This document shows, piece by piece, positions 18,390 through 60,808 of a DNA stretch of 64,000 nt (positions within the stretch are counted from its first letter, which is position 1; every line of letters starts with the position of its first letter). Source of the stretch: Paraburkholderia hospita (GTDB lineage: Bacteria; Pseudomonadota; Gammaproteobacteria; Burkholderiales; Burkholderiaceae); NCBI RefSeq assembly GCF_002902965.1, contig NZ_CP026106.1:3205804-3269803 (forward strand), given 5' to 3'. Below the pieces are notes generated by a model. It was not told the DNA's origin. It saw nothing but the letters and a program-made list of their open reading frames with translations, and searched no databases. The position numbers were made by a program, and so were the translations under genes.

Positions 18390-18406
18390 TCCCGTAAACC
18401 CTCACC
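18390..18406 (+). repeat. Dispersed 17-bp origin element
   Basis: TCCCGTAAACCCTCACC, flanked by C before and TGAA after. It is intergenic, 169 bp before the start of the HD-domain gene. It matches the inverted consensus of the array at 62438-63880. Confidence 0.7.
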
Positions 18407-18574
18407 TGAAGCACGTTCCGCCGGCCCTGGCAGAAAACCGCGCGCAGTTGGCAGCATCGCGTGTATCAATGCTTTTGCCGCGCACGAGGGCTCTCCCTAC
18501 ACTTTGATCACACGCCGATCGCTCACTTCGACACAGCGAACGGCCACCACCGATCACGTTCTGGAGAACCCGAA

Positions 18575-19264
18575 ATGAGCGAAATCATCGCAGGCATCAA
18601 GATCCCCGACAGCAAGATGGCGCGCGAAGCGACGCAACTCGTGCGCGACACCGAAACCGATCTGCTCTATCACCACTCGCGCCGCGTGTTCCTGTTCGGC
18701 GCGCTGACAGGCGAGCGCAAGCAACTGAAGTACGACCCGGAGTTGCTGTACATCAGCGCGATGTTCCATGACATGGGCCTGATGGAGAAATACAGCAGCG
18801 CGCACGATCGCTTCGAAGTCGACGGCGCGAATGTTGCGCGCAATTTTCTGCAGGGCTACGGCATCGACGAAAACGACATCGACATGGTGTGGGACTCGAT
18901 CGCGCTGCACACGACACCGGGCATTCCGCAGTACAAGAAACCCGTGGTCGCGCTGGTGACGGCCGGCGTCGAAATGGATGTGCTGGGTCTCGCCTACGAC
19001 GAGTTCTCGACGGAAGACCGCAAGCTGATCGTCGCAGCGCATCCGCGCGGCGAGAGCTTCAAGGAAAACATCATCGATGCGTTCGCGAACGGCACGAAAC
19101 ACAAGCCGCTGACGACGTTCGGCAACGTGAAGGCCGATGTGCTCGCGCTGAAAGACCCGGAATACAAACGCCTGAACTTCTGCAGCATCATTCTCGGCTC
19201 GGCGTGGAACGACTCGAACGTGCAGGCGGGTGCGTGCCGCAATCCCGCGCACAACCACGGCTAA
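18575..19264 (+). CDS. HD-domain protein, cyanamide hydratase-like
   Basis: 229 residues from ATG 18575, preceded by CTGGAG at 18561. The HD metal motif is readable: HHSRR (about 32-36) followed by AMFHDMGL (about 62-69), with later conserved His in ALHTTPG. The spacing and the VFLFGAL segment resemble the cyanamide hydratase/HDIG-type group that hydrolyses small nitriles or phosphoesters. I cannot assign the substrate. It appears monocistronic, with a strong terminator at 19342. Confidence 0.75.
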   Translation: MSEIIAGIKIPDSKMAREATQLVRDTETDLLYHHSRRVFLFGALTGERKQLKYDPELLYISAMFHDMGLMEKYSSAHDRFEVDGANVARNFLQGYGIDENDIDMVWDSIALHTTPGIPQYKKPVVALVTAGVEMDVLGLAYDEFSTEDRKLIVAAHPRGESFKENIIDAFANGTKHKPLTTFGNVKADVLALKDPEYKRLNFCSIILGSAWNDSNVQAGACRNPAHNHG

Positions 19265-19341
19265 GCGCGACTGACCACTCTCTCCTCGTCAAGGTCTGTT
19301 GACGATCAAGCCGCTTGCAGTCTCCGCTCAAGCGTGCCTTT

Positions 19342-19377
19342 GAATCCGCGTTCTCGCGAACGCGGATTCTTTTTTTG
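19342..19377 (+). terminator. Rho-independent terminator after the HD-domain gene
   Basis: GAATCCGCG (19342-19350) pairs perfectly with CGCGGATTC (19361-19369), followed by a run of T. It separates the + strand HD gene from the convergent AraC gene. Confidence 0.85.
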
Positions 19378-19415
19378 TTGCGAAGGCACTGCGAACGGAT
19401 GCGCTCGCGCGGCAC

Positions 19416-20378
19416 TCATCGCGCCGGAATCGCGCGTGACGACCGTCGAACCGTGTGCGAAGGCAACTCGCCAAACTGCGCCTTGTACGCATTGGCGAAA
19501 TGCCCGAGGTGCACAAATCCCCATTGCGCGGCGGCATCGCTGACAGAGAGGTCAGCCTGGCGCGTATCGAGCAACAGACGCCGCACCTGCCCGAGCCGCA
19601 ACGAGCGCACGTAGGTCAGCGGATTGGTTTGCACGACAGCCTGAAAACTGTTCTGCACCGTGCGCCGGCTCACGCGCAATTGCGTGCAGAGGCTTTGAAT
19701 GTCGATGAGCTCGTCGGGATGGTTGATCACGAAGTCGTGAATGCGGCGCACGATATCGGCCTGACACGCATAGGTCAGCCGGTTTGACGATGCGGGCACG
19801 TGATACGCGAGCAGATCGACGAGCGCCTCGCTCACCTGATTGCGCACCGCGTGCTGCGCGCGGATGTCGTCGAAGGCGTCGGGCTGCGCCAGCACGCGTT
19901 CGATCAGCGTCGCGAGCTGCAGCCCCGCGCGCGTGCAAGCGGCGTTCGGAATATCGAGTACGGTGCGGCGAAAGAGATTGTCGTCGAGTTCGACGCCCGC
20001 GCAATCGGCGACGCCTTGCAGCATGTCTGAATCGACCACGACGCCGATCAGCGCCATGTCGTCGGGCGAATGGAACTCGAACGGCGTGCCGCCTTGCGCC
20101 ATCACGAACCCGCCGCGATCGATCCGCACGCCGCCGAACGAGAACGCCCCCGCGCCCGCGAGCGGAATGCCAAACGTCATATGATTGACCGGCAACTGCC
20201 CGCGCTGCACGACACGCAGATTCGCCGACTCGTGGAACACCTGCACGCCGTCCAGCTCGATCTGCTTCACCGCGCTGCGAAACGTGCCTGAACCGATTTG
20301 GTCGTAACGCTGATCCCAACCCCGCAGCGCGGCCGCGTGGTCATCGGCATCGTTGAAGAACTGGTGATGGACGTACAC
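19416..20378 (-). CDS. AraC-family transcriptional regulator
   Basis: 320 residues. An N-terminal cupin-like sensing region (about 1-190) is followed by an AraC helix-turn-helix domain (about 215-310), recognisable from SLCTQLRVSRRTVQNSFQ and WGFVHLGHFANAYKAQFGE. Overall form resembles EutR/FeaR-type activators. Nothing obviously regulated lies beside it; the nearest divergent gene is the MarR regulator 286 nt away. A TetR-type palindrome sits in its upstream region (20425-20440). Confidence 0.85.
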   Translation of the reverse strand: MYVHHQFFNDADDHAAALRGWDQRYDQIGSGTFRSAVKQIELDGVQVFHESANLRVVQRGQLPVNHMTFGIPLAGAGAFSFGGVRIDRGGFVMAQGGTPFEFHSPDDMALIGVVVDSDMLQGVADCAGVELDDNLFRRTVLDIPNAACTRAGLQLATLIERVLAQPDAFDDIRAQHAVRNQVSEALVDLLAYHVPASSNRLTYACQADIVRRIHDFVINHPDELIDIQSLCTQLRVSRRTVQNSFQAVVQTNPLTYVRSLRLGQVRRLLLDTRQADLSVSDAAAQWGFVHLGHFANAYKAQFGELPSHTVRRSSRAIPAR

Positions 20379-20424
20379 GGTGCCCCCACAATCTCAAAAA
20401 AACCGCCAAGTTGCGTAGAATAAA

Positions 20425-20440
20425 CCGACCAAGCGGTCGG
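20425..20440. promoter_or_regulatory. TetR-type operator-like palindrome
   Basis: CCGACC-AAGC-GGTCGG, a perfect 6-bp inverted repeat with a 4-nt centre, 47 bp upstream of the AraC start. The pattern is like operators of TetR/AcrR regulators. No TetR gene is adjacent; the only one in the window is at 54636-55268. Confidence 0.45.
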
Positions 20441-20664
20441 GAAAATACTTCCGAGGGTTTGTCCTGGGCGTTTTCGTCGGCTGGACGCGACAGTCCGTGG
20501 ATTTCCATGGACGCGGCGCTGATTTCCTTATTGTAGTCAGCGTCAAAAATCCGCCGAAGCCTTCCAGAACATCAGGCACGCTAAAGAAAATCCTTAATAC
20601 CCGGCTGTTACCGAGCTAGATTTACTTATATCCTAGCGAATTGCTTTTTCCCGCCTGGATATCA

Positions 20665-21141
20665 ATGGTGACGACCCGATCCCGCTCTGCCACGCCTCTC
20701 GCGATGCATCGCAATCTGCCGATGCTGCTGCTGCGCGCGCGCGAACTCATGATGGCGCGCTTTCGTCCGTTGCTCACGGCGCAGGGGCTGACCGAGCAGC
20801 AATGGCGCATCATTCGCGCGCTGCACGAGAACGGGCCGCTGGAGCCCCGGCAGATATGCGCACTGTGCACGATTTCGAGTCCGAGTCTCGCGGGCGTGCT
20901 TGCGCGCATGGAAGATCTTGGCCATGTGACGAAAGAGCGCTTTGAGGACGATCAACGGCGCGTGCGCGTGTCGCTGACTGCGCAGAGTGTGGAGATCGTC
21001 GAGCGGATGAAGCCGATGCTCGAAGCGGAATATCGCGCGTTGGAGGACAAGGTTGGTGCGAAGGTTGTCGGCGATCTCTATGTGGCGGTGGATGCGTTGA
21101 TCAGGGAACTGGATGCGGGGGAAAGCCGTGACACGGAGTGA
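20665..21141 (+). CDS. MarR-family regulator, HpaR-like
   Basis: 158 residues from ATG 20665. The winged helix region LTEQQWRIIRALHENGPLEP, followed by SSPSLAGVLARMEDLGHV, is characteristic of HpaR-type MarR proteins that repress aromatic-acid degradation operons. It faces the monooxygenase/MFS cluster convergently, so control of that cluster is likely but would act at a distance. A TTG at 20641 in frame is a weaker start. Confidence 0.82.
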   Translation: MVTTRSRSATPLAMHRNLPMLLLRARELMMARFRPLLTAQGLTEQQWRIIRALHENGPLEPRQICALCTISSPSLAGVLARMEDLGHVTKERFEDDQRRVRVSLTAQSVEIVERMKPMLEAEYRALEDKVGAKVVGDLYVAVDALIRELDAGESRDTE

Positions 21142-21203
21142 GACGAACGCGCCAGCGAAAACGCGCGGCGCGTGACATCAACGGGATCGGCAAGGAGATA
21201 TGG

Positions 21204-21383
21204 CTATTCGCTTGCCCCCTCCCCCGCCGCCTCGATCAACTTCAGCGACGCATCCGCATCGCCAATCTTCTCAATCGCCAGCAGCGCAAACCGCGCAAGA
21301 AACATTGGCGCATTAGCCTCGCCGACTTGAGTCATCGTCTTGCACAGCCGCGTATAGACGGTATCGAGTTCTGCATCGGTCAT
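21204..21383 (-). CDS. DUF2783-type small protein
   Basis: 59 residues. The start at 21383 has a GGAG site 6 nt upstream. The chain, beginning MTDAELDTVYTRLCKTMT and ending in an acidic tail, fits the DUF2783 family, which I recall next to FAD-dependent aromatic monooxygenases. It follows the monooxygenase gene by 28 nt on the same strand, so is the last gene of that operon. Role unknown; possibly an accessory to the hydroxylase. Confidence 0.7.
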   Translation of the reverse strand: MTDAELDTVYTRLCKTMTQVGEANAPMFLARFALLAIEKIGDADASLKLIEAAGEGASE

Positions 21384-21411
21384 CGCGTTCTCCATTCGTT
21401 GAATCGGTTGA

Positions 21412-23106
21412 TCAAGCAAGCGCGCGCGCAATCGCGGTCTCGACATCATCCGCGCTCGCATTGCGCCAGCGCCCCAACACATGCCCATCCGGGCGCACTA
21501 GATACACGGTGCCCGGCTTCGCGTCATAACGCTCGAAGATGCGTCCCGTGTGATCCCACGCATGCACGCCCTGCGCTTGCGGATGCAAACGCGCGCTCAG
21601 CGACACGACCTTGAACGGCACGCCGCGTTCACGCATCGCTTGCGCAAGCGCAGTGAAATCAGCGGACACCTCGCCCTCTTCACTAAAACACAGCGCCGTA
21701 AACCGCACACCGACGAGATCAGTCAAATGCGCTTCACGCGCATGCCCACCTTCAGCAATCGTCACCGGAAACTCGGCAAGCACCGCCCCCGGCACAGGCC
21801 CCGCAGCAAACGCATCGCCATCGGCGACATTCAGCGGCGACTGCACATAAGTAATCGCCGACGTCTGCCGCGGATTAATCAGTGAGCGCACACCCGGATG
21901 CTTCACAGCAAGACTCAACACAGCCTTGCGCATCAGATCGAATGCAAACGACGGCGGCGCCATGAACTCGGTACTCTTCGTGCCATAACTCAAGTTCTCA
22001 TGCGTAGCGGCAACACGCTCATCCGAATAGCTATCGAGCAACTTCGCCGATGCCAATCCCTTCACAACAAACGCCAGCTTCCAAGCGATATTGTCCGCAT
22101 CATCGATACCCGAGTTCGCGCCGCGCACGCCGAAGATCGGCACGAGATGCGCGGCATCGCCCGCGAACATCACGCGCTGATGACGATAACGCTCGAGCGT
22201 CAACGCATTGGCCTTGTAGATCGTGATCCAGATCGGCGCCCAGTCGCCTTTCTCGCCCATCATATCGAGCAGGCTTTGCACACGCGGCATCACGTTTTCA
22301 GGCTTCACAGCCTGCTCCGCGTCTTCGCCGTCGCGCAACTGATAGTCGATACGCCACACGTTATCCGGCTGCTTGTGCACGAGCACGGTCGAGCCCGGAT
22401 TCGACGAAGGATCGAAATACGCGAGACGCTCCGTCGGACGATCGCTTTGCAGTTCGATATCGACGATCACATAGCGCCCTTCGTAGCTCGTGCCTTGCAA
22501 CTGCAAGCCGAGCGCTTCGCGGATCGTGCTGCGCCCGCCATCGGCGGCGACGACCCAATCCGTCTCTAGCGCATAGTCGCCATCAGGCGTGGTCAATTGA
22601 AGCGTTGCACCGTCGTCGCGCGAATCGATCGACTTCACCCGCGTCTGCCAGCGGATATCGATCAGATCGGCGCGCTTCTCCGCTGCATCGAGCAAGAACT
22701 GTTCGATGTGATATTGCGCGAGGTTGACCATCGGCGGCAGCTTCTGGTTTTCGTCCTGCGGCATCGTGAAGTGCAGCACTTCCGTATCGCGATAGAAGCT
22801 GCGTCCGCCCGTCCACGGCAAGCCTGTTTTCAGAAAGCCGTCGAGTGCGCCGAGCCGTTCGATGATCTCCAGGCTACGGCGTGAAATACAGATTGCGCGG
22901 CTGCCATAGCAAACGGAATCGTCCGCTTCGATCAGCACGCAGCGCACGCCGTGATTTGCGAGACCGAGCGCGACAGCCAGTCCGACGGGCCCGCCGCCGA
23001 CAATCGTCACCGCGTGACGCTGCGCGTCCACACCCTGCGTCAGTTGCGGCAAGCGCGCTGCGTACTTTTTCCCAGCGAACGGATACGGTTTGAATTGCTT
23101 GTTCAT
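21412..23106 (-). CDS. FAD-dependent aromatic hydroxylase (MhpA/PheA-type)
   Basis: 564 residues. The dinucleotide-binding motif IVGGGPVGLAVALG lies at about 35-48, DG in VVAADGGRSTIREALG near 185-200, and the FAD ribityl-binding GD motif in FAGDAAHLVPIFGVRGANSG at about 315-335. A C-terminal thioredoxin-like domain (about 430-560) is typical of the 3-(3-hydroxyphenyl)propionate and phenol hydroxylase group. It likely hydroxylates a phenolic acid with NAD(P)H and O2. It lies 22 nt after the MFS gene in an operon MFS-hydroxylase-DUF2783; the exact substrate is not readable. Confidence 0.85.
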   Translation of the reverse strand: MNKQFKPYPFAGKKYAARLPQLTQGVDAQRHAVTIVGGGPVGLAVALGLANHGVRCVLIEADDSVCYGSRAICISRRSLEIIERLGALDGFLKTGLPWTGGRSFYRDTEVLHFTMPQDENQKLPPMVNLAQYHIEQFLLDAAEKRADLIDIRWQTRVKSIDSRDDGATLQLTTPDGDYALETDWVVAADGGRSTIREALGLQLQGTSYEGRYVIVDIELQSDRPTERLAYFDPSSNPGSTVLVHKQPDNVWRIDYQLRDGEDAEQAVKPENVMPRVQSLLDMMGEKGDWAPIWITIYKANALTLERYRHQRVMFAGDAAHLVPIFGVRGANSGIDDADNIAWKLAFVVKGLASAKLLDSYSDERVAATHENLSYGTKSTEFMAPPSFAFDLMRKAVLSLAVKHPGVRSLINPRQTSAITYVQSPLNVADGDAFAAGPVPGAVLAEFPVTIAEGGHAREAHLTDLVGVRFTALCFSEEGEVSADFTALAQAMRERGVPFKVVSLSARLHPQAQGVHAWDHTGRIFERYDAKPGTVYLVRPDGHVLGRWRNASADDVETAIARALA

Positions 23107-23128
23107 CGAATGCTCCAGATCGATTCCT

Positions 23129-24493
23129 TCAGGCGAGCCGCGCCGGTGGCGCTTCGCGTTTATCCATCGGCAGCAGCGTGACGACGACCACGCCGATCAC
23201 CAGCAGCACCGCCGAATACAGCAGCCCCGCCGAGAAACTGTGCGTCGCGTCCCGCAGCCATCCGACGATCAGCGGGTTGAGCGCCGAACTGATGTTGCCC
23301 GTCGCGTTGATCACGGCGATGCCGATAGCGCGTGCGCGAAAGCTCAGCGCATGATCGGGCGTGGTCCAGAAGATCGACATCGCCGTGTACGAACCCGCCG
23401 ACGCGAGGCACACGCCGAACATGCGCATCGCCGGATTCGCCGAGTATGCGGTGCACAGCCAGCCCGCAGCGGAGAACAGCATCGGAATCATCAGATGCCA
23501 TTTGCGTTCCCGCTTGCGGTCCGAGCGGCGTCCCCACCAGATCATCGCGACGATCGTGCACACCTGCGGAATCGCGGCGAGCAAGCCAATCGTGCGATTG
23601 CTCGCATCCGCGCTGAAGCTCTTCACGATCAGCGGCGTCCACACGGCAACCATTGCCAGCGTGTTCACGAGGCAGAAGTACGCAATCGCGAACTTCACGA
23701 CAGCCGGCGACAGCAGTTCACTGACGATGCTCTTCTGATCATTCGTATGAGCACTCACGGTAGCGCTCTGCTTATGTTCCGCAGCAAGTGCCGCGGCAAG
23801 CGTGCGCTTCTCTTCATCATCGAGCCAGCGCGCCTTTTGCGGGCTGTCGTCGAGATACGCATACACGACAAGACCGAGAATCGCCGACGGCAAGCCTTCG
23901 AGCAGGAAGAGCCATTGCCAGCCCTTCAACCCGAGCGTCCCGTCGAGTCCAAGAATGAAGCCCGACAACGCCGAACCAACCGCGGCCGTCACGGGCATCG
24001 CAATCATGAACAGCGCGTTGGCGCGCGCCCGGTACGCGGCCGGAAACCAGTAGGTCAGATACAGCAGAATGCCTGGCAGAAAGCCCGCTTCCGTCACGCC
24101 GACCAGCACGCGCAACACGTACAGCGTGCCGGGGCTCGACGCGAACATCGTCGCCGTCGACGCAAGCCCCCACGCAATCATGATCGTGCCGATCCACCTG
24201 CGCGCGCCGATGCGCGCCAGCACGACGTTGCCCGGAATGCCGAACGCGATGTAGGCGACGTAGAAGAGCGTCGTCGCGAGACCGAATTGCGTGCTCGTGA
24301 GCCCGAGGTCCTTCATCATCGTCAGGCCGGCGAAGCCGATGTTGATGCGGTCGAGAAACGAGAAGAAAAACAGCACGAACAGGAACCCCAGCAGATGCCG
24401 CGATACCTTGGCGATCACCGGCTGTTCGTGCGCATGCGGCGCGGTGGTGGCAGGCGTCGCATGCAGCGCGCCGGCTCGCGAGGAGGTGTCCAT
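23129..24493 (-). CDS. MFS transporter, ACS (anion:cation symporter) family
   Basis: 454 residues with about 12 transmembrane helices split by a cytoplasmic loop at about 210-250. SFLDRINIGFAGLTMMKDLGL in the first helix and loop, and YVAYIAFGIPGNVVLARIGAR, are typical of ACS transporters of aromatic and sugar acids (phthalate, hydroxyphenylpropionate, glucarate). Adjacent to the hydroxylase gene, it most likely imports that enzyme's substrate. Confidence 0.85.
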   Translation of the reverse strand: MDTSSRAGALHATPATTAPHAHEQPVIAKVSRHLLGFLFVLFFFSFLDRINIGFAGLTMMKDLGLTSTQFGLATTLFYVAYIAFGIPGNVVLARIGARRWIGTIMIAWGLASTATMFASSPGTLYVLRVLVGVTEAGFLPGILLYLTYWFPAAYRARANALFMIAMPVTAAVGSALSGFILGLDGTLGLKGWQWLFLLEGLPSAILGLVVYAYLDDSPQKARWLDDEEKRTLAAALAAEHKQSATVSAHTNDQKSIVSELLSPAVVKFAIAYFCLVNTLAMVAVWTPLIVKSFSADASNRTIGLLAAIPQVCTIVAMIWWGRRSDRKRERKWHLMIPMLFSAAGWLCTAYSANPAMRMFGVCLASAGSYTAMSIFWTTPDHALSFRARAIGIAVINATGNISSALNPLIVGWLRDATHSFSAGLLYSAVLLVIGVVVVTLLPMDKREAPPARLA

Positions 24494-24650
24494 ACCGTTG
24501 TCTCCGATGTTGTCGCTTTCTGATGCGTCGCAGTATGGAGCGCGGCTATGTGCTGCCTGTCCTCATTTTGGGTACAACGTGGGGCCTGTTAAGGCCTGGG
24601 GAAAACGCGGATAAGTCAGCGGAAATGCGTGCTGAAAAAAGAGGAATGCG

Positions 24651-25469
24651 TCAGGCCTTGCCCGGCCCAATGCACAGCGCAAACAGCTGCCGCTGGCTCG
24701 AAATGCCGAGCCGCCGGAACGCGCGCTTCTGATACGTGACGACGCTCGTCGCCTTGATGCCCATCGTGTCGCCGATTTCCTGCGCGGTGCGTCCTTCGAG
24801 CACGCCCGTCAGCACGTCGAGTTCGCGCTTCGACAGTTCGGGACAGAGGCCGCGCACGCGCGCGAGCATCAGATGCGAGATCGCCAGATCGCGCTGGCCG
24901 CAGATCGCGTAGTGATGCTTCGCTGCGTGTGCGATCAACGGCGCCATCGCTTCGATCAACGCGATCTCGCGCGGATGGTAATTGCCGAAGCGTCGGTCGC
25001 GATACAGGTTCACCGAGAGCCAGATATCGGGCGTCGGCTGCACGAGCAGCGACACGCGGTCCGACACGTTCGGCTGCTGATAACACGCCGCGCGATACGC
25101 TTCGTTGAGAATGTCTTCGCTCGTCTGCTGATGCAGCACGAGTGTCGAGCCGGCCTTGTCGTTGCGCGCCGACGAAACGATCTTCTGGTTGCCGTCGAGC
25201 GCATAGAAGTGGCGCGCGTAAGTATCCGCCACGTCGCGCAGAAAACGCCCGCCGCGATGGTCCGCCACAGAAACAGTACGCGGCCGGTTGCCGAACTCGT
25301 ACGCGAAGATCGTGCACTGCGAAATCGCCGCGATGTCGCCGAGCAGTTTCAGCACTTCGGCGGCGAGCGCATTCGAATCGTCGCTGCCGATCGACGATAC
25401 GAGGCCCGTCGCGCGGCTGAGATCCAGCTGCCCTTGCGAGACGGGACGGTCGAGACGCCATGAACGCAT
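24651..25469 (-). CDS. LuxR-family transcriptional regulator
   Basis: 272 residues. The C-terminal LuxR helix-turn-helix (about 205-265) begins LSKRELDVLTGVLEGRTAQE and includes GIKATSVVTYQKRAFRRLGI. The N-terminal 190 residues look like a GAF/autoinducer-like sensing domain but I cannot name a ligand. It is 157 nt upstream of the MFS-hydroxylase operon on the same strand and is the best candidate for its activator. Confidence 0.85.
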   Translation of the reverse strand: MRSWRLDRPVSQGQLDLSRATGLVSSIGSDDSNALAAEVLKLLGDIAAISQCTIFAYEFGNRPRTVSVADHRGGRFLRDVADTYARHFYALDGNQKIVSSARNDKAGSTLVLHQQTSEDILNEAYRAACYQQPNVSDRVSLLVQPTPDIWLSVNLYRDRRFGNYHPREIALIEAMAPLIAHAAKHHYAICGQRDLAISHLMLARVRGLCPELSKRELDVLTGVLEGRTAQEIGDTMGIKATSVVTYQKRAFRRLGISSQRQLFALCIGPGKA

Positions 25470-25748
25470 GATCGGAGTACGGCCAGAAGCGGCGAGAGAA
25501 AACGTGGAATCGCATCATTTTAATCTGCGCGGCGTTTACGCATAGCCGGCTGGCGCTTCGACATCCAGACCGATGCAAAAACATCGGCTCCGCTTGAGCG
25601 CATGCATAAAAACACTTCACGCCATTACGAACAATCCCGCAAGCCGCCGCGAAATTGCCTACAGTGAAAAGTTCAAACGCTCGTGCCGTTTTCATAGATG
25701 GCGCGCGCGACCCGCGTGCCGCATCGCAACATCTTCCGGAGATGAGTT

Positions 25749-27143: not shown

Positions 27144-27150
27144 GCATGCA

Positions 27151-27784: not shown

Positions 27785-27867
27785 TCCCGAATAACCTCAC
27801 CTTTCGCTACAGTGCCGTGCGGGTTGCGAGCCAACTCACCGTTGCGCGGCTCCCGGATAGTCTCACC
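27785..27867 (+). repeat. Two dispersed 17-bp origin elements
   Basis: TCCCGAATAACCTCACC at 27785-27801 and TCCCGGATAGTCTCACC at 27851-27867, 66 bp apart in the same orientation. They lie between the membrane-protein gene and the VOC gene at 27927. The 66-bp spacing is six helical turns of 11 bp, similar to spacings in the origin array. Confidence 0.65.
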
Positions 27868-32186: not shown

Positions 32187-32203
32187 TCCCGTAAACGCTC
32201 ACC
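32187..32203 (+). repeat. Dispersed 17-bp origin element
   Basis: TCCCGTAAACGCTCACC, followed by T. It is intergenic, 165 bp upstream of the small leader-peptide gene, and is one of the closest matches to consensus. Confidence 0.7.
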
Positions 32204-33856: not shown

Positions 33857-33860
33857 ACCG

Positions 33861-38625: not shown

Positions 38626-38642
38626 TCCCGAAAACGCTCACC
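38626..38642 (+). repeat. Dispersed 17-bp origin element
   Basis: TCCCGAAAACGCTCACC. Intergenic, 170 bp before the ankyrin-repeat gene. Confidence 0.7.
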
Positions 38643-43016: not shown

Positions 43017-43033
43017 TCCCGAAAACCCTCACC
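43017..43033 (+). repeat. Dispersed 17-bp origin element
   Basis: TCCCGAAAACCCTCACC, followed by T. Intergenic, 186 bp upstream of hpnR. A weak reverse-orientation match lies at 43099-43115. Confidence 0.7.
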
Positions 43034-50859: not shown

Positions 50860-51002
50860 TCCCGCAAACTCTCACCATTGATCGATCCGCACTCGTCACG
50901 GCATCTTTGACGATACCCGCAAAGCCTTATCCATCAAGGGCTTGCACTTTGTGGCGTTGCGCGTTCCGAGGGCTTTTCACTCACTCCCGTAAGTTCTCAC
51001 CT
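50860..51002 (+). repeat. Two dispersed 17-bp origin elements
   Basis: TCCCGCAAACTCTCACC at 50860-50876 and TCCCGTAAGTTCTCACC at 50986-51002, same orientation, in the 393-bp gap between the hybrid kinase and the oxidoreductase gene. Nothing else was recognised in the gap. Confidence 0.7.
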
Positions 51003-52177: not shown

Positions 52178-52192
52178 CGGCGGCAGGTCGGC

Positions 52193-53062: not shown

Positions 53063-53171
53063 AGACGCCTTCAGCCGCATGCGATAGGTCGCGTTGCCTG
53101 CGATTATGAACGGCGTCGGCGAGCTTGCGGTGATCGTCGTGCTCGCTGGATTTGCACAGTTGCCTCGTGAA

Positions 53172-53374
53172 GGTGAGAGGTTTCAGGAGCACGTCGGATG
53201 GGTATCTGGCATCCCGCAAAACCTCACCTTTGATGAGCGCATGCTCGTTGCGAGGCCACCTGTTTGAATGCCGCGCGTGCTTTTGCAGCCTTTATAGCGG
53301 GGTTTTGGCGCTTCAGGTGATGCAACGACTGCGTCTCCGGTTCACCGCACGCATGACTCCCGAAAAGCCTCACC
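53172..53374. repeat. Three dispersed 17-bp origin elements, one inverted
   Basis: GGTGAGAGGTTTCAGGA at 53172-53188 (the only dispersed copy in reverse orientation), TCCCGCAAAACCTCACC at 53212-53228 and TCCCGAAAAGCCTCACC at 53358-53374. They occupy the 334-bp gap between the LysR start and the end of the outer-membrane gene. The first two form a divergent pair, with the conserved GGTGAG/CTCACC ends outermost. No other feature was seen in the gap. Confidence 0.7.
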
Positions 53375-53396
53375 CATCACGACGAGTGAACCGATC

Positions 53397-53924
53397 TCAG
53401 AACTTCACCTTCACCTGAAACCCGATTGTGAAAGGCAGGTTATCGGAAGGGATAGGCGGAATCACAATGAAGTTAGCCCCGACGCGCTTGTATTCGACCA
53501 TCACGATCGGCGCGGCCACGGGTCCAATCGTGTGATCGTGGCCAAGTCCCCAGTTGCCGTAGTTGTAGCCGGAGATAATGCCGCCCATCACGGCAAGGCG
53601 AATGAAGCCCCAGTGCACGAACTCGGGCGCCCACACGCCGCCGCCGTACCACGATGGACGACGCAACGAATTGCGGAAGCCGCCCGCCGTCAGCGCCCAT
53701 TGCCCGTTGAGCCAGCACTCGACGCCAAGACCAGGATTGAACTGCTCGAAGTCGGTGCCCGGGTCCGGGTTGATATGATATGAGCCGAGCATGGCATCGA
53801 CCCACACGCCGCCGCTGCACCAGTCGGCTGCCTGCGCACCCGACGCTCCCATCAAACCGATGCCTGCTACCGCTGCCGCCGCGCATGCTCGACGAATCTT
53901 GTTCTTGATCTTTCCAAACGGCAT
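53397..53924 (-). CDS. Outer-membrane beta-barrel-like protein
   Basis: 175 residues with signal peptide ending AQA (about residue 32). The mature chain has alternating aromatic/glycine strands (SYHINPDPGTDFEQFNPGLG, WALTAGGFRNSLRRPSWYGG, GGIISGYNYGNWG) and ends in VKVKF. I recall similar small proteins in Burkholderia hosts and phages. PagP-like acylation was considered, but no active-site set could be assigned. Confidence 0.65.
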   Translation of the reverse strand: MPFGKIKNKIRRACAAAAVAGIGLMGASGAQAADWCSGGVWVDAMLGSYHINPDPGTDFEQFNPGLGVECWLNGQWALTAGGFRNSLRRPSWYGGGVWAPEFVHWGFIRLAVMGGIISGYNYGNWGLGHDHTIGPVAAPIVMVEYKRVGANFIVIPPIPSDNLPFTIGFQVKVKF

Positions 53925-54136
53925 GTGCTCTCCGCAACCGGTCGCGCGCCGGCGTCTGAATGTCGCGATTAGTGTCGAATTCCTCTCCAGTCGCGCACTC
54001 TACCCCACAAATCTTGCAGTGAGATGGAGTGTGCGCTCGGAACGACAGCACGCGCGCAAACGCCAACGATAGCGAACAAACGGTTACGGTCCGGTGAACG
54101 CGCCGCGCGCGCGTTCACCGTCGATATGACCGTGGA

Positions 54137-54613
54137 TTACAGGCCCAGCTCCGTCAGCCCCGGATGATCGTCCGGACGGCGGCCCAGCGGCCAGCGGTAC
54201 AGTCGATCTTCTTCGCGGATCGGCTTGTCGTTGATGCTCGCGTGGCGATACGCCATCAGTCCGTTCTCGTCGAATTCCCAGTTCTCGTTGCCGTACGAAC
54301 GGAACCAGTTGCCCGAGTCGTCGTGCCACTCATAGGCGAAGCGCACGGCGATGCGGTTGTCGGTGAAGGCCCACAGTTCCTTGATCAGCCGGTAGTCGAG
54401 TTCCCTCGCCCACTTGCGCTGCAGAAACGTAACGATCTCCGGACGCCCCGTGGGGAAATCCGCACGGTTACGCCATTTGCTATCCGGCGTGTAAGCCAGT
54501 GACACGCGCTCAGGCTCGCGCGTATTCCATGCATCTTCAGCGGCGCGCACTTTCTGGATGGCCGTCTCGCGCGTGAAGGGCGGGACGGGAGGACGTCTTT
54601 CGATATCAGCCAT
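54137..54613 (-). CDS. DUF1348/NTF2-like protein
   Basis: 158 residues from the ATG at 54611-54613. [57 protein letters not shown] and [20 protein letters not shown] are the conserved blocks of the DUF1348 group of the NTF2 superfamily. Enzymatic role unknown. It follows the TetR gene by 22 nt on the same strand, so it is probably controlled by it. Confidence 0.85.
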
Positions 54614-54635
54614 GATGGTTCCTCGTTGAACTGCG

Positions 54636-55268
54636 TCAGGTGGACGCTCGCCCATTGGACGAGCGGGTGCTTGCACTGTTGGAATCGAGCAGATGCCCGG
54701 CTGCGGTGCGCGCGTCGAGCGCGGCATCGGCGTCGCCGCTCACGAGCGCGACGCCGATCGCGCCGTCGATCAGGATCAGCCATTGCCGCGACAGCCGCGC
54801 CGCGCGCCGGCTATCGCCGCCCGTCGATGCGACGTATTCGTCGCATTGCGCGCGCACGAAGGCGAGCAGACGCTCCTTGTGTTCGCGTGCGACGACGCGA
54901 ATCGGATCGTCAGGCGAAGCGATCTCGCCCGCGGCGTTGAGAAACGCGCAGCCATGAAAATCTTCCGATACGAACCATTCGCGCAATACGTCGAACATGG
55001 CGAGCATGCGCGCGCGCGGATGCTTGCCACGGCGTAAGGTTCCTTCGATAAACCATTTCATCCAGCGTTCGTCGCGCCGCTCGAGCGCGGCCGCCACCAA
55101 CGCATCTTTCGATTCGAAATGCGTGTAGAAACTTTTGCGCGCCGTGCCCGATTGCCGGACGATCGCATCCACGCCCGTTGCGTGAATGCCGCCCGCGTAA
55201 ATCAGCGCTTCCGCGGCGTCGAGCAGCCGTTCGCGCGCGCTGCCAGTCGTGTCGTCGAGAGTAGCCAT
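54636..55268 (-). CDS. TetR/AcrR-family transcriptional regulator
   Basis: 210 residues. The N-terminal helix-turn-helix (about 10-58) includes [20 protein letters not shown] and [20 protein letters not shown]. The C-terminal ligand domain is helical, with unknown effector. It is first in an operon with the DUF1348 gene. A palindrome-like sequence AGAACGATCATTCT sits 12 bp upstream of its start and may be its own operator. It is divergent from the third YceI gene. Confidence 0.88.
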
Positions 55269-55279
55269 GCGCGAAGGGT

Positions 55280-55293
55280 AGAACGATCATTCT
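55280..55293. promoter_or_regulatory. Imperfect palindrome between tetR and yceI-like genes
   Basis: AGAACGATCATTCT, one mismatched base pair in an otherwise symmetrical 14-mer, 12 bp from the TetR start. Typical placement for TetR self-repression. It could also affect the divergent YceI gene at 55386. Confidence 0.4.
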
Positions 55294-55385
55294 CCTTCGT
55301 CAAGTATTCGCTCGCTTCGCATTTGCGGTCACTTCGGCGCTTCAGGCATTATCGTGTTGGAGAACCGTTCAAAAGGATGAGTGTC

Positions 55386-56024
55386 ATGAGCATCATTTTT
55401 CGCCGCGCCGTGGCCGCGGTTGCGATGACGGCGGCGCTGGGCGCATGTACGCCGTTGCAGGTCGTCACGCATACGGTCACGCAAACGGAAGCCCGCGTGC
55501 CTGTCGGCCAGTACAAGCTCGATCCGCATCACACGAGCGTCACGTTCAACGTCGATCACTTCAAGTACACGCGCTTCACGATGCGCTTCGATCGCGTGGC
55601 GGGGGAGATCGACTGGAAGGAAGGCGGGCTCGACAAGAGCCAGGTCGCGGTGACGATCGACGCGGCGAGCATCGACACGAATGTCCCGCAACTGGACAAG
55701 ATGGTGAAGGGGACGGATATGCTCGATGCGGAGCGCAATCCGCAGATCCGCTTTGTCAGCACGCGTTTCGAGCGCACGGGCGACGCGCGCGGCAAGCTGA
55801 CGGGTGATCTGACGATACGCGGCGTGACGCAGCCGGTGACGCTCGATGTGACGTTCAATGGCTACGGCGTCGACCCGCTGACGAAAGCCGATACGCTCGG
55901 CTTTTCAGCGGACGGCCAGTTCAGCCGCTCGAAGTTTGGTCTGACGACGTGGTATCCCGCAGTAGGCGACGATATTCACTTCATCATTCAGGCAGAGGCT
56001 GAGCGGCCGCGCGCTGCGAGTTGA
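55386..56024 (+). CDS. YceI-family lipoprotein
   Basis: 212 residues from ATG 55386 (AAGGA 8 nt upstream; ATG 55377 in frame is too close to it). The signal peptide ends in LGAC, so this YceI protein is likely lipid-anchored, unlike the two at 30.9-32.1 kb. The fold is seen from YKLDPHHTSVTFNVDHFKYT, VKGTDMLDAERNPQIRFVS and DLTIRGVTQPVTLDVTFNG. It is divergent from the TetR gene. Confidence 0.85.
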   Translation: MSIIFRRAVAAVAMTAALGACTPLQVVTHTVTQTEARVPVGQYKLDPHHTSVTFNVDHFKYTRFTMRFDRVAGEIDWKEGGLDKSQVAVTIDAASIDTNVPQLDKMVKGTDMLDAERNPQIRFVSTRFERTGDARGKLTGDLTIRGVTQPVTLDVTFNGYGVDPLTKADTLGFSADGQFSRSKFGLTTWYPAVGDDIHFIIQAEAERPRAAS

Positions 56025-56054
56025 TTCTATTTGTACGCGCGCGGCGCGGCGCTG

Positions 56055-57083
56055 TCAGACGGTCCAGTCGAGGATCACCTTGCCGCTTTCGCCTGACAGC
56101 ATCGTGGCGAACGCCTGTTCGTAATCGTCGACGGCGAAGCGGTGCGTGAGAATCGGCGAAAGATCCAGTCCGCTTTGCAGCATCGCGACCATCTTGTACC
56201 AGGTCTCGAACATCTCGCGGCCATAAATGCCCTTGATTTCGAGGCCCTTGAAGATGACCTGGGTCCAGTCGATCGCCGTTTGCGCAGGCGGAATGCCGAG
56301 CAACGCGATCTTGCCGCCGTGGTTCATCGCTTCGAGCATCGACGTGAACGCGCTCGGCACGCCCGACATTTCGAGTCCCACGTCGAAGCCTTCCGTCATG
56401 TGCAGATCGTTCATCACGTCGCGCAGCGATTCGCGCGCCACATTCACCGCGCGCGTCGCACCCATCTTGCGAGCAAGCTCCAGGCGGTAATCGTTGATGT
56501 CGGTAATCACGACGTTGCGCGCGCCCACGTGCTTCGCGATCGCGACAGCCATGATGCCGATCGGTCCCGCGCCCGTGATCAGCACGTCTTCCCCAACCAG
56601 ATTGAACGACAGCGCCGTGTGCGTCGCGTTGCCGAACGGATCGAAAATCGCGGCGAGATCGTCGGAGATTTCAGGCGGAATCTTGAACGCGTTGAACGCG
56701 GGAATCACGAGATATTCCGCAAACGCGCCTTCGCGATTCACGCCAACGCCAACCGTATTGCGGCACAAATGACGACGTCCCGCGCGACAGTTGCGACAGA
56801 ATCCGCACGTGATATGCCCTTCGCCCGACACGCGGTCGCCGATCGAAAAGCCGCGCACCTCCTGGCCCATTTCGACGATTTCGCCAACATATTCATGACC
56901 GACGTGCATCGGCACGGGAATGGTCTTCTGCGCCCAGTCGTCCCACTTCCAGATATGGATGTCGGTGCCGCAAATGGCCGTGCGCGTGATGCGGATCATC
57001 ACATCGTTATGTCCGACTTCGGGTTTCTTCACGCGGGTCAACGTGAGGCCCGGTGCGCGTTCGAGTTTTGCCAGTGCTTTCAT
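56055..57083 (-). CDS. tdh: L-threonine 3-dehydrogenase
   Basis: 342 residues, the standard length. It oxidises L-threonine to 2-amino-3-ketobutyrate with NAD+. Catalytic zinc site near [20 protein letters not shown] (Cys around 38), structural zinc cysteines in [15 protein letters not shown], and the NAD-binding segment [20 protein letters not shown] are all present. It lies 18 nt downstream of kbl in the kbl-tdh operon, whose product the next enzyme splits to glycine and acetyl-CoA. I recall kbl-tdh sitting near the origin of chromosome 2 in Burkholderia. Confidence 0.95.
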
Positions 57084-57101
57084 TGCTAGTGATGCCCCGT
57101 T

Positions 57102-58301
57102 TCAGATAACGCCAAGCGAACGGCCGACGCGCGCGAATGCATCGACGGCCCGATCGATCTGTTCCGCCGTGTGCGCGGCGCTCATCTGCGTGCGAATGCG
57201 CGCGCGGCCTTTCGGCACGACGGGATACGAAAAGCCGATCACGTACACGCCTTCCTTGAGCAGCGCGTCGGCCATGTTCGATGCAAGTTGCGCATCGCCG
57301 AGCATCACGGGAATGATGGGATGTTCGCCCGGCACGAGCGTGAAGCCGTGCGCGCTCATCGCCTGACGGAAATGCGCGCCGTTTGCGCGTACGCGTTCGC
57401 GCAACTGCTTGCCTTCGTCGCTGGCGAGCAGTTCGAGCACCTTCAGCGATGCGGCGGCGATACTCGGCGTTAGCGTGTTCGAGAACAGATAGGGACGTGA
57501 GCGCTGCCGCAACAGATCGACGACCTCCTGGCGCGCCGCGATGTAGCCGCCCGATGCGCCACCCAGTGCCTTGCCCAGCGTGCCCGTGATGATGTCGATG
57601 CGATCGAGCACGCCGCAATGTTCAGGCGTGCCGCGTCCGTGTTCGCCGATAAAGCCGACGGCGTGCGAATCGTCGACCATCACGAGTGCGCCATAGCGGT
57701 CCGCGAGATCGCAGATGCCCGCGAGATCGGCAATGATGCCGTCCATCGAAAACACGCCGTCCGTCGCGATCAGCTTGAAGCGCGCGCCCGCTGCATCGGC
57801 TTCGCGCAGCTTCGCTTCGAGATCGGCGAGGTCGTTGTTCTTGTAGCGGTAACGCTTTGCTTTCGACAGACGCACGCCGTCGATGATGCTCGCGTGATTG
57901 AGTTCGTCGCTGATGATGGCGTCGTTATCGTCAAGCAGCGTTTCGAACAGGCCGCCGTTTGCATCGAAGCAACTCGAATAGAGGATGCAGTCGTCCGTCT
58001 TCAGGAATGCGGACAGCGCGCGTTCGAGTTGCTTGTGCACGGTCTGCGTGCCGCAGATGAAACGCACCGACGCCATGCCGAAGCCGTCCTGGTCGAGCCC
58101 GTCTTTTGCGGCGGCGATCAGGCGCGCGTCGTTCGCGAGGCCGAGATAGTTGTTCGCGCAGAAGTTCAGCACGTCGGCGCCGCTCTCGAGACGAATATCG
58201 GACGATTGCGGGCTCGCGATCACGCGCTCGGTCTTGTGGAAACCATCGGCGCGAATCTGGTCGAGCGTGCTGCGCAGATGCGCGAGGAAGGGGTCACGCA
58301 T
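57102..58301 (-). CDS. kbl: Glycine C-acetyltransferase (2-amino-3-ketobutyrate CoA ligase)
   Basis: 399 residues from the ATG at 58299-58301. A PLP enzyme of the alpha-oxoamine synthase family: [20 protein letters not shown], the [19 protein letters not shown] block, and the PLP-lysine in [20 protein letters not shown]. It converts 2-amino-3-ketobutyrate plus CoA to glycine and acetyl-CoA. First gene of kbl-tdh; divergent from an XRE-cupin regulator whose likely operator is at 58396-58411. Confidence 0.95.
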
Positions 58302-58395
58302 GAAACGGCTCCTTGAATGGACGGCTCTGCAGCGCACCATGCGGCGCGGCGGCCTGTTATAGTCGGCTTCAGTTTTATCGGAAATTTTCGTTTTT

Positions 58396-58411
58396 TCGAA
58401 CTAAAGTTCGA
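58396..58411. promoter_or_regulatory. Inverted repeat between kbl and the XRE-cupin regulator
   Basis: TCGAAC-TAAA-GTTCGA, a perfect 6-bp inverted repeat, followed 5 bp later by another TCGAAC half-site (58416-58421). It lies in the 143-bp divergent region and is a good candidate operator for control of kbl-tdh and the regulator. Confidence 0.6.
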
Positions 58412-58444
58412 TATGTCGAACAACTCTAAACGATAGGTCAGGAA

Positions 58445-59059
58445 ATGGCAAGTTCGGGAACGCGCAGGAGTTCGTCGTCTACGGCGGCCACGGCAGCCCA
58501 GTCGGTTGCGGCGCCGCCGCGCGTTGGAGAGCAGATTCAACGATTGCGCAGTGAACGCAAAATGACGCTCGACGATCTGTCGCGCGCGGCCGGGGTGTCG
58601 AAATCGATGCTGTCGGAAATCGAACGCGACAAGGCGAATCCGACGATCGCCGTCGCGTGGCGGCTGACGAATGCGTTGGGCGTCAGTCTCGATTCGCTGT
58701 TCGCACCGCAGAAAGCGCCGGAGCCGGTGGCCGTTTCCGGCCCTCATGAGATCCCGACGCTGAGCGGCCATGACGCGCGATACCAGTTGCGCGTATGGGG
58801 ACCGATTGAACTGGCGGGGAAATTCGAATGGTACGAACTGACGCTGCAAGCGGGTGGTGCGTTGGTGTCGAGCGCGCATGAGCCGGGGACGCGCGAGCAT
58901 CTGACTGTGCTGCATGGCTCCATCGATATCGAAGCGGCGGGCACCACGAAGCGCCTGAAGACCGCCGACACCGCACGCTACGTCGCCGACGAGCCGCATG
59001 CGATCCGCAATGCGGGGAAAGGCGAGGCCAAAGCCCTGCTTGTCGTCATTCACGGCTAA
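58445..59059 (+). CDS. XRE-family regulator with cupin domain
   Basis: 204 residues. After a low-complexity Ser/Ala N-terminus, the helix-turn-helix (about 27-82) reads RLRSERKMTLDDLSRAAGVS and SMLSEIERDKANPTIAVAWR. The C-terminal cupin (about 130-200) likely senses a small metabolite, plausibly threonine or glycine given the divergent kbl-tdh operon (inference). The inverted repeat at 58396-58411 is in the shared promoter region. Confidence 0.87.
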   Translation: MASSGTRRSSSSTAATAAQSVAAPPRVGEQIQRLRSERKMTLDDLSRAAGVSKSMLSEIERDKANPTIAVAWRLTNALGVSLDSLFAPQKAPEPVAVSGPHEIPTLSGHDARYQLRVWGPIELAGKFEWYELTLQAGGALVSSAHEPGTREHLTVLHGSIDIEAAGTTKRLKTADTARYVADEPHAIRNAGKGEAKALLVVIHG

Positions 59060-59100
59060 CCTGAGTCGCGACTCTTCGGCGTACACTCGGCTTGCAGCAA

Positions 59101-59122
59101 ATACTGTATGTTTGTACAGTAT
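59101..59122. promoter_or_regulatory. LexA (SOS) box
   Basis: ATACTGTA, 6 nt, TACAGTAT: the core CTGT (59104-59107)-8 nt-ACAG (59116-59119) exactly fits the proteobacterial LexA consensus, with the flanking TA/TA symmetry of strong E. coli boxes. It lies 23 bp upstream of the start at 59146, in operator position for that gene. Confidence 0.8.
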
Positions 59123-59145
59123 ACGCAGTCCGATGGAGCCGAAGA

Positions 59146-59544
59146 ATGAACGAACTGAACAAGGAACAGGATCTGGCTGCGCTGCGCTTCAAGTCCGCAG
59201 CGCGTGACCTCGAACACATCGTCCGGCACATTGCGGCGCGATACATCGTGCAGGAGTTGCCGCTCACCTGGCGGCTTCTGCATGCGATCGAAGCGGAAGC
59301 GCTCGCGGATCTCGGTTTTGCCAGCCGGCACGATCCCGTAATGCTTGGGTTGTTTCAACGGCCCGACGACTTTCAGTTCCCCGAGACCGATGATGCCGTC
59401 GACTTTGGCCGATCGAATGCGCTGCCGGCTGTGTTCGCGTTCGCTGTCGCGGCTTATGACGCTGCGGAAAAGTCGAAGGCTTCAACGACCAGAAGTCGAG
59501 TTACGAGCGATGAGCGCAGCGGCGGGCGGGCATGGGGCGGATGA
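59146..59544 (+). CDS. Hypothetical protein under a LexA box
   Basis: 132 residues from ATG 59146, with GGAG at 59135-59138. It is soluble and mainly helical, beginning MNELNKEQDLAALRFKSAAR, with a C-terminal basic tail of low complexity. I recognise no domain. The strong LexA box just ahead suggests induction by DNA damage. It sits between the threonine-degradation genes and the recombinase-like/kfrA-like/origin region, so a link to replicon maintenance or stress control of replication is possible. Confidence 0.65.
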   Translation: MNELNKEQDLAALRFKSAARDLEHIVRHIAARYIVQELPLTWRLLHAIEAEALADLGFASRHDPVMLGLFQRPDDFQFPETDDAVDFGRSNALPAVFAFAVAAYDAAEKSKASTTRSRVTSDERSGGRAWGG

Positions 59545-59584
59545 CGTGTTGATTGGACGTCGCTGCGATCTGCGGGCGGCAGGA

Positions 59585-59600
59585 GTTTATGCGCGTAAAG
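59585..59600. repeat. Single parS-like site near the origin
   Basis: GTTTATGCGCGTAAAG, two bases from the perfect palindrome GTTTATGCGCATAAAC and close to the core of the tandem array at 15059-15351. It lies 104 bp upstream of the recombinase-like gene. Confidence 0.5.
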
Positions 59601-59703
59601 TCTGCGCGACCTGCCGAACCAGGACGCCGACGGTTTCCAACACAAAGTATCCCGCCCGTCGACCGACTACAATCGTCCCATGCAACTAACGGAAAGACAG
59701 ACT

Positions 59704-60762
59704 ATGGTCTCCACCGATCCTGTTGGCCCCACTGGTCTATCCGCCACTGGTGCGGATCTATTCGATACGGAACGTCAAGACTGGCTGGTCGATCCGCGCA
59801 CGGCATTCGATGCATGGCTCGCCGGACAAAACTTTCGCCATTCGTCGGCGGAGGTGTATCGCGCGCAGTGGGGACTTTTTCTCGAATGGCTACAGGCGCG
59901 TCACAAGAATCTCGTCACGGTCGATATGCGATCGATAGCGGAATTCGTCGGCGGACTGTCGATCCGAAAGCCGCAACGCGCCCGATATCTCCGGTTGATC
60001 GAGCGCGTGCTCGACCATGTGCGCGAGATCGAACTCGCATCGACCAACCCCGCGCGATTCATTGCTCAGGATGGCGAAGCGGAATGGCGTAACGCGCGCG
60101 ACAACGAGCCAACAGGGTTTCTGACCATCGCAGAGCGTTCGGCCTTGATCGCTTATCTTTCTTCGCCCGTGACAAATCTGACGTCGGCCCAACGCTGGCG
60201 CGAGCGCCGCGATCGCGCCTTGATTGCTGTTTTTCTTGGCGGCGGTATCAAGACAGGCGAAGCGCGCACGATTTCGGTTGATTGCATGACAGCGGGTTCG
60301 CCGTGGGTCGTGATCGAAGCGACCAATCCATTGTTCACGCGGAGAACGCGGCTCGCACCATTTGCCGTGTCCGTTCTCGACGCCTGGCTCAACGAACGCA
60401 AGCAAGCGGAACTGCCCGGCGAGCTGGTTTTCCCCGCCTCGCCATCAGGTCGTCCCATGCATAAAGCGACGATGCTTCGCGCCGTCGACGCGCTTGTCGA
60501 AGCGGCCGGAATCAGTCGATCGCGCGAAGCACGGGCAAGTCCCCACACTTTGCGTAACTCGTTCGCTGCCGATCTGTTCGAAAGCGGGGTGGAACCGGAG
60601 GTCGTCGGACAATGGCTTGGATTCGCGCAGGCTGTTTCCGCGAATCGATTGCATCGCGCGTGGAAGATCTGGAATGATCAGGAAAAATTCGACGCCGAAA
60701 TGCGCCTTGCGGAAACACCAACGTCTTCTGAAGATCCCGAGCAGACGCAGGACCGCGGCTAG
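59704..60762 (+). CDS. Tyrosine-recombinase-fold protein, apparently missing catalytic residues
   Basis: 352 residues from ATG 59704, chosen because GGAAAG lies 7 nt upstream; ATG 59680 would follow a TACAAT -10-like site almost directly. An N-terminal SAM-like core-binding domain (about 30-130) and a catalytic-type domain (about 135-325) are present. Box II HTLRNSFAADLF keeps His281 and Arg284. However the box I arginine is Lys (GGGIKTGEARTIS, about residue 183), the LGH motif is LGF, and no Tyr is found in the C-terminal NRLHRAWKIWN where the nucleophile belongs. It may bind DNA without strand transfer. Two 17-bp elements follow its stop, before the convergent kfrA-like gene. Confidence 0.75.
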   Translation: MVSTDPVGPTGLSATGADLFDTERQDWLVDPRTAFDAWLAGQNFRHSSAEVYRAQWGLFLEWLQARHKNLVTVDMRSIAEFVGGLSIRKPQRARYLRLIERVLDHVREIELASTNPARFIAQDGEAEWRNARDNEPTGFLTIAERSALIAYLSSPVTNLTSAQRWRERRDRALIAVFLGGGIKTGEARTISVDCMTAGSPWVVIEATNPLFTRRTRLAPFAVSVLDAWLNERKQAELPGELVFPASPSGRPMHKATMLRAVDALVEAAGISRSREARASPHTLRNSFAADLFESGVEPEVVGQWLGFAQAVSANRLHRAWKIWNDQEKFDAEMRLAETPTSSEDPEQTQDRG

Positions 60763-60767
60763 ACGCC

Positions 60768-60808
60768 TCCCGTAAACCTTCACCCTCGAAGCCCCGAAAA
60801 CGCTCACC
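60768..60808 (+). repeat. Two 17-bp origin elements between convergent genes
   Basis: TCCCGTAAACCTTCACC at 60768-60784 and CCCCGAAAACGCTCACC at 60792-60808, 24 bp apart. They fill the 81-bp gap between the stops of the recombinase-like and kfrA-like genes, so are not promoter elements for either. Confidence 0.7.

Follow-up and report, generated by a model that had tools for sequence, protein, structure and literature searches.

What does the repeat of a replication origin do when it lies tens of kilobases away from that origin? The question is raised by a 64,000-nucleotide stretch of Paraburkholderia hospita DNA (hereafter the window), which corresponds to bases 3205804-3269803 of contig C2 (3,269,803 bp) in a genome of 11.5 Mb and six contigs. 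In the window a 17-bp element, TCCCGnAAnnnCTCACC, is found both as direct repeats (iterons) clustered at the chromosome-2 origin and as 13 further copies dispersed along the DNA. An initial annotation, made from the letters of the window, had regarded the two as one element and as possible initiator-binding sites. Comparison with related genomes upholds this: the dispersed copies have the same sequence as the origin iterons and, as far as can be judged from sequence, are probably initiator-binding sites.

Base 1 of contig C2 is the start of a gene for a 450-amino-acid Rep3-family initiator (rep), followed by parB and parA-type genes; the contig was taken as circular, and therefore the right end of the window abuts rep. 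Altogether, the order is tyrosine recombinase (59680..60762, plus strand), a pair of sites, kfrA (60844..62049, minus strand; KfrA_N, PF11740), an AT-rich stretch (62050..62430), iteron cluster, rep, parB and parA. The cluster (62438..63880) comprises 16 copies that score 17 bits or more and all occupy the minus strand; if the contig is circular, it lies next to rep, so that the cluster of direct repeats beside the initiator gene that characterizes an iteron replicon is found here. The AT-rich stretch, which reaches from kfrA to the first iteron, is where the polarity of the sites switches, and is a putative unwinding region.

All 13 dispersed copies are present in the sequence and lie outside called genes, the gene boundaries being those of a codon-usage gene caller and not of a curated annotation. 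On the plus strand these are 18390..18406 (27.5 bits, 32 bp past a LysR-type gene), 27785..27801 (25.6 bits), 27851..27867 (21.5 bits), 32187..32203 (26.3 bits), 38626..38642 (27.5 bits), 43017..43033 (28.6 bits), 50860..50876 (25.5 bits), 50985..51001 (23.2 bits), 53212..53228 (23.8 bits), 53358..53374 (27.3 bits) and a pair between the 3' ends of the recombinase gene and kfrA, 60768..60784 and 60792..60808. The copy at 53172..53188 (24.4 bits) alone is on the minus strand, as is the origin cluster; the initial annotation had not commented on strand. Similar minus/plus neighbours to those at 53172 and 53212 occur at -10.7 to -13.6 kb in three other genomes (G020, G094 and G011), with matching flanking genes only in G020. 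Twelve of the starts given initially were correct, and the copy placed at 50986 begins at 50985. The spread described at that point was also found, but to extend it to the whole window was too wide, because the first 18.4 kb contain no strong copy.

The copies clearly exceed chance, as had been claimed. With up to two mismatches, TCCCGNAANNNCTCACC was found 32 times in the window (one of these, at 63400, lies on the plus strand within the cluster, and its core is broken), compared to a mean of 1.37 (standard deviation 1.28) in 100 dinucleotide shuffles. The tighter pattern YCCYGNANNNNYTCACC was found 28 times against 0.02 expected. In the whole genome it matches 77 times, as opposed to 6 times for the reversed control; 33 of the 77 matches fall in a zone that reaches from the chromosome-2 origin 174 kb to the left and 15 kb to the right, and 44 elsewhere. 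When C2 was scanned with the matrix from -224 to +160 kb, the only sites outside the window to reach 17 bits were two pairs, at -173 and -125 kb, and a single site at +15.0 kb. Strong copies thus concentrate on chromosome 2 near its origin, mostly less than 175 kb from it, and the equal density on all replicons that the initial annotation had named as contrary to its idea did not occur.

This origin-proximal and largely replicon-specific spread recurs in other genera. The strict pattern was present in 97 of 97 genomes of the genus, with 4-28 matches each and at most one match per strand for the reversed control. In 24 chosen genomes from six genera, counting strict-pattern sites on the rep-bearing contig (some of the other contigs, e.g. 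in G129 and G038, are probably draft pieces of chromosome 2), 153 sites lie on the kfrA arm 2.2-100 kb out and 12 sites more than 250 kb away. The arm on the rep side is sparse up to 100 kb, with 14 strict sites, 13 of them within 20 kb. The order kfrA, rep, parB is kept in ten relatives from six genera, and kfrA adjoins the cluster in all ten. Together with P. hospita these make up 11 genomes mapped in stretches fetched around known sites (a scanned stretch of the g25 genome G187 is outside these counts). They contain 342 sites of at least 17 bits, 179 of which are dispersed by the zone rule (180 with another cut), and 141 of the 180 have a neighbour at most 450 bp away. By codon-usage gene calls, 165 of the 179 are intergenic. 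Without the kfrA pair, convergent gaps are densest in sites (1.69 per kb) and divergent gaps sparsest (0.75 per kb). Origin-type sites near but outside the origin are thus found, which, on sequence grounds, is the layout of a titration array.

The genes around the sites differ. Grouping of the loci by homologous flanking genes gave 39 groups, of which 33 were seen in only one or two of the 11 genomes; therefore the near-origin position is kept and the neighbours mostly are not. Widely shared were the site at the 3' end of kfrA (10 genomes), a site in hpnD (10) and a group at about -11 kb (8), followed by a remote group (5 genomes) and two groups of 3. In a larger set of 80 named loci kfrA was found in 78, and 77 of these 78 species have a site at its 3' end, 48 of them two or more.

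A second regularity concerns direction. In the named loci with kfrA, all 1115 origin-cluster sites of at least 19 bits lie on one strand, and the 24 genomes have 153 strict origin-cluster sites, every one of which has the same direction. On the kfrA arm (-100 to -2.2 kb) the sites of these genomes point toward the origin in a ratio of 125:28, opposite to the cluster. Thus, GGTGAG...CGGGA usually reads in the direction of a fork leaving the AT-rich stretch. Per genome, the majority on the arm was opposite to the cluster in 21 of 24, the others being two reversed and one tied g10 genome. The bias fades more than 100 kb from the origin (9:7). Neither this polarity nor the one-armed layout had been noted in the initial annotation.

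Simpler origins of this polarity were considered. Counted per intergenic locus beyond 4 kb, the ratio was 50:8 with 2 ties. By gene orientation it was 26:2 in convergent gaps, 24:0 and 17:9 in the two tandem classes and 11:7 (5:4 by locus) in divergent gaps; the direction is the same in all four classes, and therefore gene direction contributes to the polarity but does not explain it. Base composition was rejected as the cause, as it predicts 1.4:1 in place of 125:28. Low-score background matches lean like the dispersed sites (16:9). The locus groups, tallied by hand without group 0 (the kfrA pair), the rep-side groups 1 and 32 and the mixed groups 2, 3, 17 and 29, gave 27:5, with p about 0.0001 at even odds and 0.002 at composition odds.

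The site in hpnD lies within a coding sequence. It is found outside the window, on the arm of rep (+11 to +17 kb in 9 of the 11 mapped genomes), and the identity of the gene is given by TIGR03465 above cut-off in P. hospita. The site spans the codons for S-V-R-(I/V)-F-G-M, a peptide present in 10 of 11 genomes. Its arginine is encoded by AGA or AGG in 10 of 10 cases, as opposed to 0 of 70 at seven other conserved arginine columns nearby; these two codons account for 2.5% of arginine codons in the fetched genes. Likewise, its glycine is GGG in 10 of 10 cases, compared to 8 of 50 at five other conserved glycine columns. Codon use thus rules out that the copy is a by-product of the protein sequence, and shows it to be held by rare codons under selection at the DNA level. 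In a sample of 160 genomes, 40 matched the hpnD pattern with any codons (the pattern demands the exact peptide, so the remaining 120 are uninformative), and 39 of these 40 were compatible with an iteron: 38 have AGA or AGG, one has AGC, by which the residue is changed and the iteron kept, and one has CGG, by which the site is lost. Wherever rep shares its contig (20 of 20 genomes), the hpnD site points away from the origin; this includes three g10 genomes with hpnD on the kfrA arm, and two genomes (G172 and G174) for which circular contigs are assumed.

Additional insight into the binder was gained from relatives in which Rep has diverged. Rep homologues 30-37% identical are accompanied by related but different origin repeats: cCCtG...CTCACc in g17 and g18, AGGTGaACGtcyATGGT-like in g16 and g7, CCCAaa....TTCACCT in g3, and tCCCATAaacgGcTACC in the second Rep3 replicon of g12, presumably chromosome 3. 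As diverged Rep homologues carry different repeats, the origin motif goes with Rep in these comparisons. Nine diverged loci of 17-20 kb, scanned with their own matrices, had 0-8 sites outside the origin stretch (8 in G112, 6 in G111, 3 in both G131 and G102, 2 in G113, 1 in two loci and 0 in two), and their reversed-sequence controls gave 0 in eight cases and 1 in one. In G111 and G146 the respective diverged motif also occurs 5-20 kb from rep, on both strands. KfrA_N had no match in three g16 genomes, all with a diverged Rep. It was likewise without match in four small-genome relatives (1.1-1.2 Mb, apparently endosymbionts), which keep 6-12 origin sites on replicons of 61-72 kb; no dispersed sites were found in these four shrunken replicons. 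Neither the origin cluster, in these four genomes, nor the diverged near-origin copies of g16 thus depend on KfrA. KfrA as the sole binder is therefore disfavoured, and it may still act as a second one.

Taking these observations together, we favour the view that the dispersed copies are Rep-binding sites which titrate or handcuff the chromosome-2 initiator, and assign it a probability of roughly 0.6. The near-origin sites would be duplicated soon after initiation. Being on average nearer to consensus than the origin iterons, they would then soak up free Rep or, alternatively, pair with origin-bound Rep (handcuffing). As a consequence, the next initiation would be delayed until more Rep is made, which would help to limit replication to once per cell cycle; what the polarity contributes to this we can only infer. 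This reading is favoured because extra sites that are replicated early correspond to the layout of RctB titration, and because the same has been argued for DnaA. With regard to consensus, the strict core was present in 100 of 165 dispersed but 60 of 162 origin sites when pooled. An origin-trained matrix that left out one genome at a time also scored the dispersed sites higher in the 11 pooled genomes (p=0.0015), a difference in matrix scores. Sites nearer to consensus are expected if the origin is filled last.

Several observations weigh against this reading. By itself, titration would lead one to expect neither polar sites nor a one-armed layout. The polarity itself has exceptions, as two of the three g10 genomes are mostly reversed and g16 is mixed, and in the 78 named species it is weak close to rep (17:10 for sites less than 10 kb away, the kfrA pair excluded). 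In 3 of the 11 genomes (G140, G143 and G165) the dispersed sites score below the origin sites. Some copies are found off chromosome 2, including pairs beside recombinase and kfrA genes and beside ssb and primase genes. The strict g17/g18 pattern finds only origin copies in 10 of 10 cases, in each of four g12 genomes the second Rep3 replicon carries 0-2 remote copies, and in the shrunken replicons the loss of dispersed sites coincides with both small size and the absence of kfrA.

The polarity is the starting point of an alternative in which the dispersed iterons work mainly through their direction, with Rep interacting with the moving fork instead of being simply titrated, be it by clamp-linked inactivation, as a direction-dependent barrier or by marking of the replicated arm. 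To our knowledge there is no Hda-like partner for Rep, and the exceptions in g10 and g16, the weak bias close to rep and the similar lean of background matches also speak against it. The orientation of the hpnD copies is tied to that of the gene, and orthologous sites are not independent. On the other hand, the bias on the arm holds by site, by locus and, if weakly in divergent gaps, in all gene-orientation classes, is far above that expected from composition and switches at the AT-rich stretch; the hpnD copies, too, all point away from the origin. A parallel is given by E. coli DnaA boxes, which according to the available parts of PMC12371093 prefer the lagging strand, a preference linked there to regulatory inactivation of DnaA (RIDA). 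Overall, we consider this alternative unlikely, though serious enough to be kept in mind. We are similarly doubtful, if slightly more so, that KfrA, encoded beside the origin, binds the sites to organize or tether the origin region. The constant place of kfrA next to the cluster, the site at its 3' end, the site pairs near two kfrA paralogs on contig C4 and the joint absence of kfrA and dispersed sites from the shrunken replicons would all fit with this. However, genomes without a KfrA_N match keep the origin cluster or, in the case of g16 (at least G111 and G146), near-origin diverged copies; the C4 pairs sit next to the start of the recombinase gene; and the operator of RA3 KfrA, as described in the accessible text of PMC7783346, consists of 9-bp repeats in its own promoter and is not found elsewhere on RA3.

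If the sites were operators through which a transcription factor (it might be Rep) regulates adjacent genes, they would be expected to lie between genes, as most of the dispersed sites do. A conserved set of target genes was not found, the neighbours mostly differing between species, and with sites sparsest in divergent gaps and densest in convergent ones the promoter reading was rejected in this form. One conserved copy inside a coding sequence and the clustering round a single origin further make a regulon very improbable. We give least credence to a link with the tyrosine recombinase beside kfrA, for which the copies would be arm-type or accessory sites. A recombinase gene does neighbour such pairs on chromosome 2 and, in two cases, on C4, but the main cluster is situated between kfrA and rep and changes along with Rep, the sites span over 100 kb, and other pairs are found between ssb and primase-like genes.

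Regarding known systems, iteron plasmids such as R6K, F and P1 combine a Rep3-type initiator with an iteron cluster, handcuffing and extra inc iterons within a small plasmid, whereas here the extra iterons extend over 100 kb of chromosome. For F and R6K, handcuffing and extra inc iterons are covered in the parts of PMC11711613 at hand. A functional likeness is chromosome II of V. cholerae, also a second chromosome with a plasmid-type initiator and extra origin-proximal sites. There, according to the accessible text of Baek and Chattoraj (2014, PMC3937223), extra RctB sites spread over about 74 kb, some 40 kb from the origin, bind RctB and lower the copy number of a mini-chromosome; the site sequence is unrelated (methylation-dependent iterons and 39-mers), and polarity is not described in that text. 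Later chromatin immunoprecipitation sequencing gave 8 regions on Chr1 and 6 on Chr2 (PMC11711613, same parts). In E. coli, DnaA motifs concentrate near the origin with a bias to one strand per replichore, and titration was argued (PMC12371093, as above). In contrast to DnaA and datA of that primary chromosome, we deal here with an iteron initiator and mostly with one arm.

Closest in sequence is B. cenocepacia J2315, whose chromosome 2 has the same motif and the same replicon type. Its iteron is printed as ctCCCGAAAAacCTCACCTtt by Du et al. (2016, PMC4948915), and the legend of S1 Table mentions more repeats in other parts of the genome, among them a second cluster at a distance of 140 kb from the origin. 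The initial statement that no such system is described in Burkholderiaceae is thus not supported, and the motif and a second remote cluster are already known. The accessible text of that paper contains no analysis of dispersed copies, of their polarity and conservation across genera, of the hpnD copy or of how the motif varies with Rep. We also observed remote arrays with mostly 23-bp steps at about +147 to +160 kb in the g12 genomes G143 (L090) and G165 (L085), which resemble this B. cenocepacia cluster; their flanking gene family is common to the remote pairs of three genomes of the genus (group 2). In the open-licence literature, which includes few subscription journals, no multi-genus array, polarity, one-armed layout, coding-embedded site or Rep-linked variation was found, and as far as searched the organized array is new.

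More speculatively, in secondary chromosomes of Burkholderia and its relatives a polar, mostly one-armed array of sites, oriented with respect to fork movement and with one site held by rare codons in a biosynthesis gene, might sense the passage of the fork, which would convert or sequester Rep and give a once-per-cycle control like that of datA and RIDA. We regard this as improbable at present. Vibrio cholerae is the main organism in which the coupling of a plasmid-type origin to the cell cycle has been investigated in depth, and if the idea is true, the array would add a second one, in which the site sequence is unrelated. A contrast is built in, between large second chromosomes that have dispersed sites and shrunken replicons that lack them, and the polarity together with the rare-codon hpnD site makes the idea directly testable.

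Some features of the replicon complete the description. The closest match of the initiator with a named source is Paraburkholderia caribensis MBA4 (99%). The initiator has both winged-helix domains of this family, Rep3_N and Rep3_C (PF01051 and PF21205), each above its cut-off. Its match to the R6K pi protein (PDB 2nra) is weak (E 0.0041), and the structure prediction of Rep is too poor for use (mean predicted local distance difference test score 43.8). The recombinase matches Phage_integrase (PF00589), with XerD and XerC as best NCBIfam models, both below their cut-offs. GC skew changes from negative values on the left to positive ones on the right, with a minimum near -7 kb at 1-kb resolution.

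Outside chromosome 2, a motif search of the first 3 kb of contigs C3, C4, C5 and C6, which did not cover the far ends, gave no convincing iterons. On C4 of P. hospita, iteron-like pairs 19 bp apart were seen between a tyrosine recombinase gene and a kfrA paralog (L166 9595-9630 and L167 10294-10329), echoing the recombinase-kfrA neighbourhood of chromosome 2. Upstream of both paralogs (L166 and L167) a palindrome, GACATTA-N6-TAATGTC, was noticed by eye; it differs from the iteron and is a candidate KfrA operator. In four genomes, other contigs carry iteron-like pairs, 32-33 bp apart, that come directly after an ssb-like gene and before a primase-like gene (L165 6307-6356, L172 10466-10514, L173 9541-9589 and L174 11365-11414); the two ssb-like genes tested match Pfam SSB and two primase-like genes match DUF7146. 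A mobile repeat as carrier of the sites was rejected, as no longer repeat surrounds them among the 20 largest families of repeats, out of at least 60. Away from chromosome 2, three copies (on C1, C4 and C5) are one shared sequence, which on C4 precedes a transposase-like gene (by eye) and on C5 has different neighbouring called genes; it is at most a candidate insertion sequence. Finally, near-palindromes GTTTATGCGCCTAAAC cluster at 15059-15367 of the window, about 49 kb from the origin, where they overlap a 118-nt repeat. These are four matches, with 1-3 mismatches, to what we take to be the chromosome-2 parS motif, which occurs in exact form at C2:3474 and in variant form at 2482, 3262 and 3561; the cluster is possibly a remote secondary parS site.

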